Shown here: positions 7,180-43,646 of the stretch, in pieces
Layout: each line of letters starts with the position of its first letter
Position numbering within the stretch: position 1 is the first letter of the stretch
NCBI GenBank assembly: GCA_903862465.1
Contig: CAIOYH010000049.1
Coordinates: 1 to 43,646, forward strand
Length of the DNA stretch: 43,646 nucleotides
Source: an uncultured bacterium
Lineage (GTDB): Bacteria > Bacteroidota > Bacteroidia > Bacteroidales > CAIWKO01
Reading direction: 5' to 3'
Notes under the pieces: generated by a model
The model's input: only the letters and a program-made list of their open reading frames with translations
Databases searched by the model: none
What the model was told of the DNA's origin: nothing
Program-made: the position numbers and the translations under genes

Positions 7180-7452
7180 TTTCCAATTTAATTCTTCCCC
7201 GAAATATATTAATTCCCCTCCAAAATATATTAATTCCCCTCCAAAATAAATTATTTTCCCTGCGAAATAAATTAATTCCTCTCTGAAATAAATTAATTCC
7301 TCCCCAAAATAAATTAATATCCCTCCAAAATAAATTAATTCCTCTCCAATATTAATTAATTCCTCCCCGATATTAATTAATATATCTCCATTATTAATTT
7401 ATTATTCTTCGAAATTAATTCATTATTCGCCATTATTAATTTTGAAGTTAGC
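7180..7452. repeat. 21-bp tandem array, about 13 units
   Basis: Units begin at 7201 and every 21 bp after that up to 7432, with a degenerate unit at 7180. Each unit is an AAATAAATTAATT-like AT part followed by a CCTCTCC-like pyrimidine part; the AT part drifts toward TATTAATTAAT on the right. No unit is longer or shorter than 21 bp although many bases differ. Read on the minus strand most of the array is open with a 7-residue period, but it has no start codon there and in-frame stops at the right end, so I treat it as non-coding. Confidence 0.92.
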
Positions 7453-8708: not shown

Positions 8709-8922
8709 CAAATACCAAGTCCAAATTCCAAGCTCCAAATCCCAAGCTCCAAATCCCAAGGCTAAGCACTACTGTATTAACCCCGACATTTCATGTACGG
8801 GACAGGTTACGAATTTTCGAATTACGAATGCGGCTAAGCACTAAGAAAAAACAATAGAACAATTCAACAATAAAGCAGTCCCATTAATGACTAATAACCA
8901 TTAATGACAAAGAATGACCATA
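8709..8922. repeat. Intergenic words A, B, C and D in order between convergent genes
   Basis: Word A is CCAAGCTCCAAATC repeated with a 14-bp period (8709-8760). Word B is CTAAGCACTAAGAAAA (8834-8849). Word C is CAATAGAACAATTCAACAAT (8852-8871). Word D is three AATGAC motifs with CCATTAATGAC (8881-8922). The last AATGAC lies directly after the stop codon of the minus-strand gene that ends at 8925. Confidence 0.75.
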
Positions 8923-8924
8923 AT

Positions 8925-9680
8925 CTATTCCCTATTCTTCGCCTTTTTCTTCTTATCTTTCTTGGTGAATTTGAATTTTTCGGGGAGATATTTCTCGTTT
9001 AAGTAATAGAGTAAGCGGACAGTAATAACATTATTATATTGATTGCGCGTCCATGGATCAACGTTTCCCGGGTCAGGATCGTAATAGCGACTACGAATCT
9101 TAGCCATCGAATAGGAATAGCGGATATTAAATTTTAGATGTTTCCAAACACGAAACCGAATATCTGCAATCACAGAGAAATCGTTTTTCGATTTATACAA
9201 TATAGTGCCCGGGCGTTCCCATTGCTGTGCAATATTCCATTCTTTTTCTTTGAACGATACCATGCGTCCCCACGAAAACCCTAATCCAAAGGTCCACGTG
9301 CTGCGGTCTTCAAAATGAACCATGATAGGTGCGGTCAGATAATTCCACTTCAAGGAATAATACGGAAGTTGTTGCCCTGAATCAGCAGTAGAATTGGGTA
9401 TTTTTTGGAATGCCCCTTTTTCATCATACAACACTTCGACGCTTAAGGAAAAGCGATGCCCCAAAGGTAGTATGCCGCCAAATCCCACATTCGCTCCTAC
9501 TTTATGAAAACCATATACCTGATCCCCATCCACCTGAGTGAGATTGACACCACCGATCAGTATGCCTTTAATCTCGCGGTCAACATTAATTTTTTTCGCT
9601 TCTTCCTTCTCTTGAGAAAAGGATCTGAGGAAGGATAGCTGTAGCAGCAGCAATAGGTAAAGTAGATATTTTAATTTCAT
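8925..9680 (-). CDS. Outer membrane beta-barrel protein
   Basis: The likely start is the ATG at 9680 (251 residues), because the -7 promoter box lies at 9707-9714 and an upstream ATG at 9728 would precede transcription. The signal peptide MKLKYLLYLLLLLQLSFLRS ends near FSQ. The rest alternates aromatic and polar residues as in the Bacteroidota outer-membrane beta-barrel family, with repeated amphipathic strands such as GVNLTQVDGDQVYGFHKVGA, FSLSVEVLYDEKGAFQ and FNIRYSYSMAKIRSRYY. The C-terminus is a very basic tail (KKDKKKKAKNRE), unusual for a barrel that should end in an aromatic residue. Cargo or ligand is unknown. Confidence 0.82.
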   Translation of the reverse strand: MKLKYLLYLLLLLQLSFLRSFSQEKEEAKKINVDREIKGILIGGVNLTQVDGDQVYGFHKVGANVGFGGILPLGHRFSLSVEVLYDEKGAFQKIPNSTADSGQQLPYYSLKWNYLTAPIMVHFEDRSTWTFGLGFSWGRMVSFKEKEWNIAQQWERPGTILYKSKNDFSVIADIRFRVWKHLKFNIRYSYSMAKIRSRYYDPDPGNVDPWTRNQYNNVITVRLLYYLNEKYLPEKFKFTKKDKKKKAKNRE

Positions 9681-17126: not shown

Positions 17127-17179
17127 AAAAGGGTTAATTGGGTGAATTGAGTTGATTGGTTAATTAGAATCATTTGGTG

Positions 17180-17306
17180 GTCATTTGACTGTCATTAATC
17201 GTCATTTTATGGTCATGTTATGGTCATTTCGTGGTCATTTGATGGTCATTAATTGTCATTTAGTGGTCATTGATAGTCATCAGATGACTTGAAGTCATCT
17301 GATGAC
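17180..17306. repeat. GTCATT array with 10-11 bp spacing ending in a 31-bp palindrome
   Basis: GTCAT occurs at 17180, 17191, 17201, 17212, 17223, 17234, 17245, 17255, 17266 and 17276, so the steps are 10 or 11 bp throughout. The right end is a near-perfect palindrome (17276-17306): GTCATCAGATGACTT, one central base, AAGTCATCTGATGAC. The palindrome includes the last codons and the stop codon of the minus-strand gene that ends at 17295, so it can act as its terminator stem. Confidence 0.88.
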
Positions 17307-18290: not shown

Positions 18291-18424
18291 CTACATTCTT
18301 TTGAAATATGGATATTTTTTTTTGGAAATATTAATTACTGCCTCCGAAAGTATTCTCTATCTAATTGATAATATGACTAAAGTAGTTCGCATCATGCTAT
18401 GTTATTTTTTTACATAGTGATGTA

Positions 18425-18679
18425 GCACATTGCATCATCTATATACATATTGTTGCATACAATAGATGCGCATTGCATCATCTATATACTTCTTTTTGTA
18501 TATATTAGTTGCACATTGCATCTTCTATATACATTTAATTGCATATAATATTTGCACATTGCTTCGTTTATATACATTATATTATATATATTAGTTGCAC
18601 ATTGCATCTACTATATACACAATATTGCATATAGTAGATGCACTCTACTTTATCTGTATATATAAATGTACAGATAGAT
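18425..18679 (+). repeat. 43-bp tandem array in which each unit forms a hairpin
   Basis: Units start at 18425, 18468, 18511, 18554, 18597 and 18640, exactly 43 bp apart. Each begins GCACATTGCATC (or a close variant) and has an AT-rich centre. In the fifth unit GCATCTACTATAT pairs perfectly with ATATAGTAGATGC. In the sixth, ATCTGTA pairs with TACAGAT; in the second, TATATAC pairs with GTATATA; in the first, ATTGT pairs with ACAAT and ATCTAT with ATAGAT. The stem sequences differ but pairing is kept. Confidence 0.88.
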
Positions 18680-33918: not shown

Positions 33919-34115
33919 GATGAAACAACATTAATTCATATAATGTGAGGAGTCACAATTGATGAAACAACATTAATTCATGCAATGTGAGTAATCACAA
34001 TTGATGAAACAACATTAATTCATATAATGTGATTAATCACAATTGATGAAATAACATTAATTCATATAATGTGAGGAGTCACAATTGATGAAACAACATT
34101 AATTCATATAATGTG
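33919..34115 (+). repeat. 42-bp tandem array, about 4.7 units
   Basis: Units start with GATGAAACAACATTAATTCA at 33919, 33961, 34003, 34045 and 34087, exactly 42 bp apart. Each holds ACATTA/TAATGT inverted arms 7 bp apart and a second dyad GTGA....TCAC; in the third unit this becomes the perfect 12-bp palindrome GTGATTAATCAC. A weaker half unit can be seen before 33919. The array is between the ccoI gene end and the unknown protein's promoter. Confidence 0.9.
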
Positions 34116-39973: not shown

Positions 39974-42121
39974 TTATTTTACAGTTTTCGTAGCAGCAGG
40001 TGAAATATCGCGACCCAATTTGTGCAGATACGCAATCATAGCAATAACTTGTGACGTGGGTTTCACATCCACTCCCGCAAGCTTCAGTTCAGCAACTATC
40101 TTATCGGCTTGCAGCGTATAATCTGCCACCGATTTGGTATCATAACCCGTTGGATAGGGCACGCCCAACATTTGCATCACACGTATCTTTTTCGGTATCT
40201 CCGTCAGGTCAACATCCTTGCTTATCAGCCATGGATAAGGAGGCATGATAGACTTGGGATTCATGGTTTGAGGATTCAGGAAGTGATTATATTCCCAAAT
40301 GGCGGTCTTGTAGGTGGAACTTCCTATATATCCCGCTCGTGCCAAATCGGGACCACTGCGACGCGAACCCCATTGGAACGGATGGTCGTAAACAAACTCA
40401 CCCACCTTGGAATATTCTCCATAACGGTCTGTTTCATATCGCAAAGGTCTCACCTGTTGCGAATGGCAATTGTAGCATCCATTGCTGATATACACATCGC
40501 GACCTGCCAATTCCAAGGGAGAATACGGCGTTACGGTGGCTATTTTCGGTATATTCGATTCCACTTTCAGCATCGGGATAATCTCCACTATGCCGCCTAC
40601 TATCAAGGCAACAAACACCAGCAGAGAAAATCTTACTGCCTTACGTTCCATCCAACGATGAATGGTTTCTCCGGCAGCACTGCGTTTCTGTGTGTTCACC
40701 AAAGCGGGAGCTTCTGCCGCTTCACTGCGAACCAAACTTCCCATCTTTATCGTTTTAATCATATTGTAGAGGAACAGCAAGAAGCCCGTCAAAAACAAGG
40801 CACCACCCAAGATACGGATATGATACATGGGCAACAAACGCGCCGCTGTTTCTATGAAGTTTGGATAGGTCAGCAGTCCGTCGGCAGTATATTCTCTCAA
40901 CATCAACCATTGGGTGATGCCTGCCCAATATAACGGAATGGCAAACATCAATATCCCAAGTGTGGCTATCCAAAAATGCGTATTGGCAAGTTTCTCCGAA
41001 TAGAGTTTTGTTCTAAACAGTTTGGGAACCAACCAATATAACATCCCAAAAATCAAACCCGCGTTCCAGCCCATGCCCGCAATATGTGTATGGGCAATGG
41101 TCCAGTCGGTGAAGTGGCTAATCGCATTCACACTCTTGAGCGACATGATGGGTCCTTCGAACGTTGCCATACCATACGCCGTGAGCGCCACCACCATAAA
41201 CTTCAAAGACGCACTGTCGCGCACCTTGTCCCAAGCACCTCTCAGTGTCAGCAAACCATTCACCATACCGCCCCACGAAGGTGCGATGAGCATGATGGAA
41301 AAGGTTACGCCCAACGCCTGCACCCAATCGGGCAAAGCTTGGAACAACAGATGATGAGGTCCCGACCACATATAGATGAATATCAATGCCCAAAAATGCA
41401 CTATGGACAACTGATACGAATACACAGGTCTTTCGGAAGCTTTCGGCAGAAAATAATACATGATGCCCAACCAAGGCGTGGTGAGGAAAAAGGCGACCGC
41501 ATTGTGTCCATACCACCATTGCACCACAGCATCCTGAGCCCCTGCATATATCGGATAGCTTTGGATGAACGACACGGGAATTTCGATGGAGTTCACGATA
41601 TGCAACACCGCTACGCCGATAAACGTGGCTAAATACCACCACACCGACACATAAATATGTTTCACCCTGCGTTTCAAGATGGTGCCTATCATGTTCCACC
41701 CAAAGGTGACCCATATCAGCGCAATCATAATATCAATGGGCCATTCCAGCTCTGCATATTCTTTGCCTGTGGTGATGCCGCAAAACAAACTCAGCGCCGC
41801 ACACAGGATGATAAACTGCCATCCCCAAAAGTTGACGCGGCTCAAGATGTCGTTAAACATACGCGCCTTCAACACCCGCTGCATGGAATAATACACCCCT
41901 GCAAACATCGCATTGCCTATAAAAGCAAAGATAATGGCATTGGTATGTATCGGTCTCACCCTGCCAAAGGCAGTAAACTCCAGTCCCAGATTAAAAAAAG
42001 GTATTGACATTTGCAGGGCAATCAGCAGCCCTACCACCAAGGCTACAGCACCCCAGATGAGCGTTGCCCAGATAAAATTTCTGACAATAGCATTGTCGTA
42101 ATTGAATTGTTGGTTCTCCAT
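39974..42121 (-). CDS. ccoNO: Fused cbb3 oxidase subunits I and II (CcoNO)
   Basis: This 715-residue protein joins CcoN and CcoO. Part N (to about 480) has the heme-copper oxidase ligands: IHTNAIIF (His59), WWYGHNAVAFF, MWSGPHHLLF with the CuB His pair, and IAHTHIAGMGWN with the heme b/b3 histidines. Part O (from about 500) starts with a membrane segment (FSLLVFVALIVGGIVEIIPM) and holds one heme c site, YNCHSQQVRPLR. Fusion of N and O is typical of Bacteroidota. The complex reduces oxygen with high affinity, and with CcoP forms the core. It lies 11 nt after ccoS. Confidence 0.96.
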   Translation of the reverse strand: MENQQFNYDNAIVRNFIWATLIWGAVALVVGLLIALQMSIPFFNLGLEFTAFGRVRPIHTNAIIFAFIGNAMFAGVYYSMQRVLKARMFNDILSRVNFWGWQFIILCAALSLFCGITTGKEYAELEWPIDIMIALIWVTFGWNMIGTILKRRVKHIYVSVWWYLATFIGVAVLHIVNSIEIPVSFIQSYPIYAGAQDAVVQWWYGHNAVAFFLTTPWLGIMYYFLPKASERPVYSYQLSIVHFWALIFIYMWSGPHHLLFQALPDWVQALGVTFSIMLIAPSWGGMVNGLLTLRGAWDKVRDSASLKFMVVALTAYGMATFEGPIMSLKSVNAISHFTDWTIAHTHIAGMGWNAGLIFGMLYWLVPKLFRTKLYSEKLANTHFWIATLGILMFAIPLYWAGITQWLMLREYTADGLLTYPNFIETAARLLPMYHIRILGGALFLTGFLLFLYNMIKTIKMGSLVRSEAAEAPALVNTQKRSAAGETIHRWMERKAVRFSLLVFVALIVGGIVEIIPMLKVESNIPKIATVTPYSPLELAGRDVYISNGCYNCHSQQVRPLRYETDRYGEYSKVGEFVYDHPFQWGSRRSGPDLARAGYIGSSTYKTAIWEYNHFLNPQTMNPKSIMPPYPWLISKDVDLTEIPKKIRVMQMLGVPYPTGYDTKSVADYTLQADKIVAELKLAGVDVKPTSQVIAMIAYLHKLGRDISPAATKTVK

Positions 42122-42367: not shown

Positions 42368-42495
42368 CGATTTAGGTAAACAAATACCGAAATAAATTTA
42401 TTTCCTATGAATTTTTCATTCTCAATCCCTAATTTTTCATGTTTCATTTTTCATTCAAACCCGAAACTTGCTATTTGGAGCTTGCATCTTTCTTT

Positions 42496-42620
42496 GGGCG
42501 CATCCCCGACAAGAAATTGTCGGGGTCGGGCTTTCCATTCCAAGTCCTCGCGCCTGAAAAACGGCGCTGTGGGCTTTCCATTTCAATCCCTTGCGCGCGT
42601 GCCAACGGGCTGTCCCTTGG
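42496..42620 (+). repeat. REP-like element with two hairpins and a duplicated GGGCTTTCCATT
   Basis: GGGCGCAT precedes the stem CCCCGAC (42504-42510)/GTCGGGG (42519-42525). Then comes TCGGGCTTTCCATTCC, a second stem GCGCC (42550-42554)/GGCGC (42563-42567), and TGGGCTTTCCATTTCAATCC. It ends with TGCGCGCGTGCC. Constant words separated by variable stems are typical of REP-like elements. From memory, similar words occur in other Bacteroidota genomes, but I could not check. Confidence 0.65.
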
Positions 42621-42678
42621 ACTCTTAATCAATCTTACACCCTCACATTTTCCCCTTATGTCCTCATCTTTTATGATG

Positions 42679-42900
42679 ACATCGATGTTATCTTAAACGA
42701 CATCGATGTTAGCTTACCCGACATCGATGTTAGCTTAAACGACATCGATGTTAACTTAAACGACATCGATGTTAACTTAAACGACATCGATGTTAGCTTA
42801 CCTGACATCGATGTTAGCTTAAACGACATCGATGTTAATCGAACTAACATCGATGTTAATCGTGCTAACATCGATGTTAATCGTGCTAACATCGATGTTA
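42679..42900 (+). repeat. 21-bp array of 11 identical ACATCGATGT palindromes
   Basis: ACATCGATGTTA starts at 42679 and every 21 bp up to 42889, 11 copies without a single shift. ACATCGATGT is a perfect palindrome; in the last three to four copies it extends to TAACATCGATGTTA (14 bp). Linkers are of a few types (GCTTAAACG, GCTTACCCG, ATCGTGCTA). The frames through the array are open on both strands with a 7-residue period because 21 is divisible by 3. Confidence 0.95.
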
Positions 42901-42974
42901 GCTTAAAAAACCTGAATGCAAAATCGAAAATAAACGAATTCATCCATGTAACCTACGCTAGCTGACGCACAAAA

Positions 42975-43003
42975 AAAAACGATAGCTTGCGACTATCGTT
43001 TTT
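42975..43003. terminator. Bidirectional terminator-like hairpin
   Basis: AAAAACGATAG (42975-42985) pairs perfectly with CTATCGTTTTT (42993-43003) around the 7-nt loop CTTGCGA. The T tract on both strands allows termination in either direction, though no gene end is near. Confidence 0.75.
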
Positions 43004-43030
43004 ATTTAAGTGATTAGAAATCCGTTGTTA

Positions 43031-43102: not shown

Positions 43103-43317
43103 GCCTCTCCTATAGCGAAACGCCAACCCCTCAGTCGGAAACAAAGGCAGCACCATCAAAAGGTACTAATGCACATCGTCGGACGTTTAGTGCCGTAGTG
43201 GAGACAAATTACAACTTTGGCGATTGGATTTGGGTGGTTGTTCAATAAAAAAAACTATAAGAACTCATAATTAATACTATGTAATCAGTAATTTAGTAAG
43301 TATTTTCTCTCGAAAGT
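43103..43317. other. Intergenic stretch, nothing recognised
   Basis: No gene, terminator or promoter was recognised here. The right end is AT-rich and leads into the last array. Confidence 0.5.
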
Positions 43318-43646
43318 TAATTGCCGCAAGCAAAATACTAATTGCCGCAAGCAACAGACTAATTGCCGCAAGCAACAGGTTAATTACCGCAAGCAACAGG
43401 TTAATTGCCGCAAGCAACAAGTTAATTACCGCAAGCAACAGGTTAATTGCCGCAAGCAAAATACTAATTGCCGCAAGCAACAGACTAATTGCCGCAAGCA
43501 ACAAGTTAATTACCGCAAGCAACAAGTTAATTACCGCAAGCAACAGGTTAATTGCCGCAAGCAACAAGTTAATTACCGCAAGCAACAAGTTAATTACCGC
43601 AAGCAACAGGTTAATTACCGCAAGCAACAAGTTAATTACCGCAAGC
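43318..43646 (+). repeat. 21-bp array, 16 units, running off the window
   Basis: Units beginning TAATTGCCGCAAGCAA or TAATTACCGCAAGCAA start at 43318 and every 21 bp to 43633. Each has a constant CCGCAAGCAA core and one of four 3' ends (AATAC, CAGAC, CAGGT, CAAGT). The pair AATAC-CAGAC at units 1-2 recurs at units 7-8, which shows a higher-order 126-bp (six-unit) duplication. The translated frames give 7-residue repeats of low complexity and are not a credible gene. The full length is unknown because the window ends inside it. Confidence 0.95.

Follow-up and report, generated by a model that had tools for sequence, protein, structure and literature searches.

Beside the cco operon of an uncultured bacterium of the order Bacteroidales, with its COX1 and FixO domains, lies a run of short palindromes at regular spacing, and the question that this locus raises is whether the run serves that operon or belongs to something larger. 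The window, meaning the whole stretch of DNA that was analysed, is a contig of 43,646 nucleotides (CAIOYH010000049.1). A sequence-only reading had described eleven perfect palindromes at exactly 21-bp spacing, with constant palindromes and variable linkers, and had proposed that they form sites for a symmetric dimer on one face of the helix, serving perhaps as a regulator platform, a decoy or a structural site upstream of cco.

The array itself was borne out by a direct pattern search and by Tandem Repeats Finder. The ACATCGATGT palindromes start at 42679, 42700 and so on up to 42889, with all steps being exactly 21, and Tandem Repeats Finder independently calls the array at 42677-42907 with a period of 21. 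Allowing at most one mismatch, the window holds 13 matches to ACATCGATGT against 1.35 expected, and none of 100 shuffles reached 13. Conserved sequence flanks the array on both sides, with the leader at about 42627-42677 and the tail with its hairpin at about 42909-43022, and arrays of this type are unidirectional, running from a leader of about 50 to 75 bases through the units and a tail of about 60 bases to the hairpin. The hairpin, with the sequence AAAACGATAGCTTGCGACTATCGTTTT, is flanked by T-rich stretches on both sides. On the other side, the leader borders a REP-like repeat of about 170 bp, which is absent from some copies of the element; in BLAST searches, positions 42435-42900 match L011 (90%) and 42467-42638 match L054 (85%), and L011, L054, and L072 match one another in the REP-like stretch. 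The features of the window are collected in Table 1.

Table 1. Features of the window, with positions counted from its first letter; a dot marks features listed without a strand.
Feature	Position	Strand	Basis or remark
CcoN-CcoO fused cbb3 oxidase gene	39974..42121	-	Pfam COX1 and FixO; neighbour, outside the element
REP-like dispersed repeat, ~170 bp	42467..42638	.	BLAST; directly 5' of the leader
Element leader, kept among copies	42627..42677	+	Nine-copy alignment; the G015:C24 match begins at 42627
Array of 21-bp units	42678..42908	+	n=11: seven with CTTA-type linker, three ATCG-type, the last CTTA-type
Exact ACATCGATGT palindromes	42679..42898	.	n=11, step 21; direct pattern search
Element tail	42909..42970	+	Alignment of nine tails
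Terminator-like hairpin	42975..43003	.	Common to arrays of different sequence
Conserved tail end	43004..43022	+	BLAST matches to L009, L010, L012, and L052 stop at ~43021-43022
Second 21-bp array, unrelated sequence	43316..43646	.	Tandem Repeats Finder; truncated by the contig end
Second-array flank common to paralogue	43224..43315	.	43224-43549 matches G000:C10:1-325, 86%
Further 21-bp array	7188..7441	.	G003:C52 matches the left flank, then other DNA, no array
43-bp array	18389..18643	.	Repeat finding
42-bp array	33919..34115	.	Relatives: G003:C115, G003:C280, G015:C24

The window's genome (G000), which was searched over 4,226,358 bases in 230 contigs, holds 48 exact copies of ACATCGATGT, with 13 on contig C39, 11 on C49 (the window), 11 on C77, 12 on C133, and 1 on C23. 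Four 21-bp arrays account for 47 of them, and the remaining one, on C23, lies within a related array of other sequence, leaving no isolated exact site in the whole genome (0/48). This argues against a regulon of single exact operators, and an operator array of such a regulon was dropped as a candidate; the single sites near promoters, for which the sequence-only reading had suggested a search, did not turn up as exact copies. Of the further roles that it had offered, a decoy is disfavoured by this result if its regulator is one that also has single sites in the genome, and a structural or binding array could still be what the locus provides.

Since the arrays share leader, tail, and hairpin, the repeating thing is the leader-array-tail element. 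The hairpin pattern (at most three mismatches) was found at six places in G000, at five in the sister species (G003), and at one in G015, which is an assembly of another family with about 700 contigs, and at none in G001 and G002, two genomes of the same genus. Ten of these 12 places adjoin a 21-bp array of at least three clear units, including arrays of quite different sequence; of the other two, G003:C334 has about three degenerate units as its neighbour, and C179 runs out at the tail, where the contig ends. A damaged hairpin, missed by the pattern, is present at the first of two places on C163 and on G003:C27. Within the four G000 arrays, the units with the ATCG-type linker are clustered near the tail, two to three in each, suggesting that whole arrays, and not single units, are copied between loci; the G003 copy shows a more mixed order.

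A platform from which the cco operon is regulated would fit the position of the array upstream of the operon, and two of 80 cco loci of other species (1,008,855 bases in all) likewise have a distant upstream 21-bp array, about 2.9 kb away in L117 and about 1.7 kb in L172, of other sequence. A third and last period-21 array among the 80 loci lies downstream of cco (L105). On the other side, the three further ACATCGATGT arrays of G000 (C39, C77, and C133) sit beside other genes, the eight nearest cco loci (L093-L100, with 2.5 to 6 kb upstream covered) have no array at the threshold used, and arrays at other loci differ between the sister species. We therefore regard a platform for cco as very improbable, and the cco-specific regulator site that had been proposed is not supported. 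The relatives of the cco locus place the organism in the Bacteroidota, the best of them being found in an uncultured Bacteroidetes MAG (83% identity), and the CcoN-CcoO protein gave no match in G001, G002, G003, and G015 in a search run without a positive control. The three arrays at these loci (L172 6-167, L117 2955-3051, and L105 10629-10749) belong to records of Bacteroidota that are not members of the genus, so that such arrays are not strictly limited to it.

Three cores at 21-bp steps are found in three of 393 genomes of the order, namely G000, G003, and one contig of G015. That contig, G015:C24 (L052), also holds a relative of the window's 42-bp array, and since it thereby carries a second array family of the genus, a mis-binned contig is as likely as a transfer. 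Between G000 and G003, the arrays differ at several orthologous loci. C77 has 11 units and G003:C334 about three degenerate ones, with flanks at 87 to 92%. C179 and C133 flank an array of the ACATCGATGT type, whereas the array of G003:C27 differs in sequence (flanks, 88 to 96%); the junction of the two contigs is inferred from G003 synteny, and about 1.8 kb on C179 beside the junction lacks a G003 match. C163 carries a unit that is related to, yet distinct from, the ACATCGATGT type present at G003:C529 (flanks, 89 to 93%), and about 3 kb on C163 is lacking in G003 at this locus. The arrays of C39 and G003:C336 also differ, the left flank alone being matched, and at the second place on C163, matched by G003:C36, the two species have one family in common. 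G003:C5 has two side-by-side arrays; in G000, both C90 (orthologous) and C29 (paralogous) lack the first of them as a block. No clean empty site for the whole element was found, the block absent from C90 and C29 being one array, and no whole-element transposition with target duplication was seen.

The unit number differs between relatives, as in a minisatellite or VNTR with tandem units of 10 to 100 bp, and the locus might be a neutral one, in which slippage and unequal exchange homogenise the units, nothing binds them, and the 21-bp step reflects the mode of origin. The arrays of unrelated sequence, the array missing as a block, and the turnover of sequence at shared loci are in line with such a neutral origin, as are the leader and tail, which by our reading of the alignment resemble degenerate units. 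We consider it a possibility to be taken seriously, although it is not the one that we favour; the evidence against it comes from the palindrome, the spacing, and the hexamer counts described below.

Arrays with such units are a habit of the genome at large. A sample of G000 (252,173 bases from 20 contigs, at most the first 20 kb of each; arrays of at least 150 bp) contains 21 arrays, of which 11 have a period of 21, two of 20, two of 41, one of 42, three of 43, one of 85, and one of 92. By extrapolation, the genome would hold roughly 250 to 350 arrays, a figure that contig starts may inflate, as five of the 21 sampled arrays touch one. In this draft genome, contig starts and ends frequently fall within such arrays, which makes the arrays easy to overlook; the paralogue of the window's second array begins contig C10, and arrays seem to break the assembly. 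For the other genomes, arrays of at least 90 bp were counted. In G003, 39,926 bases yielded four of period 21, including a simple heptamer-like repeat, and G001 has five of period 21 or 41 in 172,589 bases. No array was found in 104,364 bases of G002, where one of 63 bp falls under the limit. G013 and G015 each have one of period 42 (in 72,413 and 29,313 bases, respectively), and 20 other genomes of the order show no period of 20 to 22 and one of 41 in 338,041 bases.

G000 and G003 abound in non-coding arrays whose sequences are unrelated and whose units measure 20 to 21 or 41 to 43 bp. Over 26 arrays with periods of 20 to 92 bp, the window included, the length is 239 +/- 55 bp. None of 48 arrays lies within an ORF extending at least 300 bp beyond the array, the largest overhang being 298 bp. 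Sub-periods of 7 or 10 to 11 were not found in 30 period-21 arrays. A half-period signal exceeds the background maximum in eight of 12 arrays of 41 to 43 and 85 bp (in two of them barely) and is absent in four, which gives only partial support to the idea that the longer-period arrays descend from 21-bp ones. By eye, the arrays have no flanking motif in common. They also show no clear preference of orientation to genes, with 8, 5, 4, and 1 of 18 arrays in -/-, -/+, +/+, and +/- gaps (strand of the left and of the right gene), where the background gaps from a simple ORF caller number 32, 17, 20, and 9. A Y1 transposase was considered as the motor and rejected, its matches (4, 3, 6, and 6 in G000, G001, G002, and G003) showing no correlation with array density. 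Two side observations concern single arrays. Between two minus-strand ORFs, at 17170-17271 of the window, lies an array of 11-bp period (TCATTTAATGG), close to one helical turn. L011 has two abutting 21-bp arrays at 8746-9197, and by our reading a compensated pair is what distinguishes their hairpins (TTCCG..CGGAA and TTCAG..CTGAA).

Within the ACATCGATGT family, the palindrome is nearly invariant. Over 57 units of five arrays, four in G000 and one in G003 (the twelfth C133 unit, truncated at the contig end, was excluded), one of 570 palindrome cells is changed, compared with 197 of 627 other cells. Permutation of the sites gives p=0.00013 for the palindrome core and p=0.003 for any 10-base stretch, both values being guides only, as the units are related by descent. 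The contrast between constant palindromes and variable linkers, proposed for the window array, thus holds there and extends, with a single changed core cell, to four further arrays, making five in two species, and the palindromes are better conserved than the linkers in the comparison with relatives as well. A near-invariant core, variable linkers, and helical phase at five loci make it likely that a constraint acts on the symmetric core of the ACATCGATGT family. It counts against a neutral origin that the palindrome is near-invariant though the linkers diverge between species. The proposed site for a symmetric dimer on one helix face gains from the core and the phase, and dimer binding itself may be called a fair guess.

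The same contrast, together with the exact two-turn step and the confinement of exact sites to such arrays, would also suit a host platform, with a symmetric DNA-binding or nucleoid protein sitting on each palindrome and stacked along one face of the helix. The sister loci, however, carry arrays of other sequence, and significant dyad symmetry is seen in few arrays (p<0.05 in 5/38 units). For the ACATCGATGT unit itself, shuffling gives p=0.16, a 10-bp palindrome within a 21-base unit not being rare as such. A dyad symmetry common to all arrays is accordingly unsupported, the combined p=0.004 over the 38 units indicating at most a weak excess. The conserved-core pattern is found in 11 of 47 arrays (p<0.05), about half of these being copies or relatives of the ACATCGATGT family, and since most other arrays are without a conserved core, dimer binding need not be general. 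We see a host platform as rather doubtful, even with its core hexamer being avoided elsewhere in both array-carrying genomes.

What the arrays keep in common is their step. Unit-by-unit tracking found it unchanged in 44 of 46 arrays, which had been selected by period (20, 21, 41-43) and include five copies of the ACATCGATGT family. Two of 397 steps are changed against 1539 of 9135 substituted cells (17%), where the step counter penalises change and misses cancelling indels, and the substituted cells count shared variants repeatedly. The non-coding orthologous flanks of G000 and G003 show 15 gap events per 206 substitutions, a ratio that is not strictly comparable to that of the arrays, as substituted cells are not independent events. 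The alignments of Tandem Repeats Finder, a program that itself favours indel-free arrays, place some indels in several arrays, for example at 7% in L054 1-362, 5% in L059, 8% in part of L068, and 2% in the window array at 7188. Even so, far more spacing changes are expected than observed. That the spacing hardly changes where 17% of the cells are substituted again goes against a neutral origin.

A reading frame could keep such a step if the array encoded a protein of heptapeptide repeats (DIDVxLx), and in one plus frame no stop codon indeed interrupts the array and tail of the seven copies that extend into the tail; in the eighth, the frame stays open up to the end of the contig. That frame has no ATG, GTG, or TTG upstream of the array in seven of the eight copies, and third codon positions hold no excess of distinct variants (6, 9, and 5 at positions 1, 2, and 3). 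Furthermore, the unit is 20, 41, or 43 bp long in 10 of the 46 arrays, lengths that are not divisible by three, so that a reading frame does not explain the fixed spacing. We dropped the coding array, which we find scarcely credible.

The hairpin at the array ends raises the possibility of a non-coding RNA or a terminator, in which the array would be transcribed toward the hairpin or the hairpin would end a neighbouring transcript. The predicted fold of the plus strand is very stable (z -13), and in 24 arrays with a dyad, the stem cells vary less than the others (121/1994 versus 308/2594). The stability, however, follows from tandem palindromes alone, and the terminator scan scores the hairpin for minus-strand transcripts only, that is, coming from the other side. 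Among the changed stem pairs of the same 24 arrays, five of which belong to the ACATCGATGT family, 84 are broken, 9 compensated, and 19 wobble; the ACATCGATGT-family stem hardly varies and is thus uninformative on its own about compensatory change. The excess of broken over compensated pairs led us to reject RNA structure as a general rule. Searches of the window, L009, L010, and L012 gave no Rfam match. An RNA or terminator function therefore appears improbable.

The core hexamer ATCGAT is scarce outside the arrays, with 9 occurrences seen in G000 against 48 expected (347,861 bases) and none in G003 against 8 expected; the avoidance is mild in G002 (18 versus 27) and absent in G001 (74 versus 66). 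The eleven ATCGAT-bearing sites of each array stand out against this avoidance, which for G000 counts against a neutral origin of the array. ATCGAT shares its scarcity with other hexamers. In the window and samples of G000 outside arrays, ATCGAT, CATATG, GTATAC, and GTCGAC are strongly under-represented (ratios of 0.19, 0.10, 0.05, and 0.06, respectively); in G001, ATCGAT and GTCGAC are not avoided, and CATATG and GTATAC are avoided more mildly (0.54 and 0.74). Such an avoidance of several palindromic hexamers looks as if restriction enzymes act or have acted in the lineage, so the avoidance of ATCGAT may be unrelated to the arrays.

On this evidence, the array is probably the tandem core of a dispersed, non-coding intergenic element, composed of leader, 21-bp array, tail, and hairpin, which is BrickBuilt-like, is under a DNA-level constraint on helical phase, and is not specific to cco. 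Several loci, shared ends, array differences at orthologous loci, the lack of plausible coding, and units of about two or four helical turns all point in this direction. Slippage or unequal exchange would multiply the units within a locus, and recombination through the shared ends would carry copies of whole arrays from one locus to another. At the DNA level, a constraint would hold every unit in helical phase and, in the ACATCGATGT family, would keep the palindrome as well. Most likely, a putative symmetric protein would touch each unit on one helix face, and this may be a host DNA-binding protein or a factor propagating the element.

A broader form of the idea takes the extrapolated number at face value, with a few hundred intergenic arrays that are free in sequence and locked in spacing to two or four turns, a nucleoid protein or filament that reads the phase and not the sequence, and a palindromic family that additionally recruits a sequence-specific dimer; we think it unlikely in this full form. 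Minisatellites are usually described by their sequence, and here the step of unrelated arrays in two sister species stays near 21 bp and seldom changes while the bases diverge. The near-fixed step offers a testable case for selection, or for a mutational rule, on helical phase.

Among known systems, bacterial VNTRs or minisatellites share the tandem units and the change of copy number between relatives and differ from the present arrays in that the latter have units of about two or four turns in dozens of unrelated arrays, with one family conserving a palindromic core. Iterons of plasmid and phage origins are direct repeats of about 21 bp in helical phase. They resemble the array in this respect, whereas the arrays described here occupy several loci among chromosomal-looking genes, and plasmid and phage records yielded no homologue of the array, nor viral contigs the exact pattern. 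A CRISPR array was rejected, as the constant repeats with unique spacers that define it are not seen, the 11-bp linkers recurring among units and loci. In the literature searched, mostly outside subscription journals, we found no account of a two-turn-locked 21-bp array system. REP and BIME sequences are likewise short, palindromic, intergenic repeats (PMC3733652), but the present palindromes are in tandem at exactly 21 bp, and Y1 transposase matches do not follow array density.

The nearest known system is BrickBuilt of Porphyromonas gingivalis, which consists of a leader, 23-nt repeats, and a tail, is intergenic, and is present in 19 copies (PMC4596501). Its described traits include terminal inverted repeats like those of the IS5-family ISPg1, a target-site duplication, and bidirectional promoter activity (PMC4596501). 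The same account mentions 41-, 23-, and 22-nt tandem repeats in P. gingivalis strain W83 (PMC4596501); the genus studied here is thus not alone in having unit lengths near 21 and 41. Three copies of the present element were searched for terminal inverted repeats, and none were consistent, with no inverted arms at matching places. Unlike BrickBuilt, which is one family with a 23-nt unit (PMC4596501), the element has a 21-bp unit that holds a perfect palindrome, a hairpin inside the tail, and many array families of unrelated sequence with a near-fixed unit length. Both are multicopy and intergenic in a Bacteroidota host, with a leader, a spacer-free minisatellite, and a tail; in both, the unit is partly conserved and partly variable, the unit number varies (between strains in BrickBuilt), and assembly gaps occur at the copies, and terminators were predicted beside 10 of the 19 BrickBuilt copies (PMC4596501). 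With unit length and terminal inverted repeats unmatched, the element is best described as BrickBuilt-like rather than as a member of BrickBuilt.
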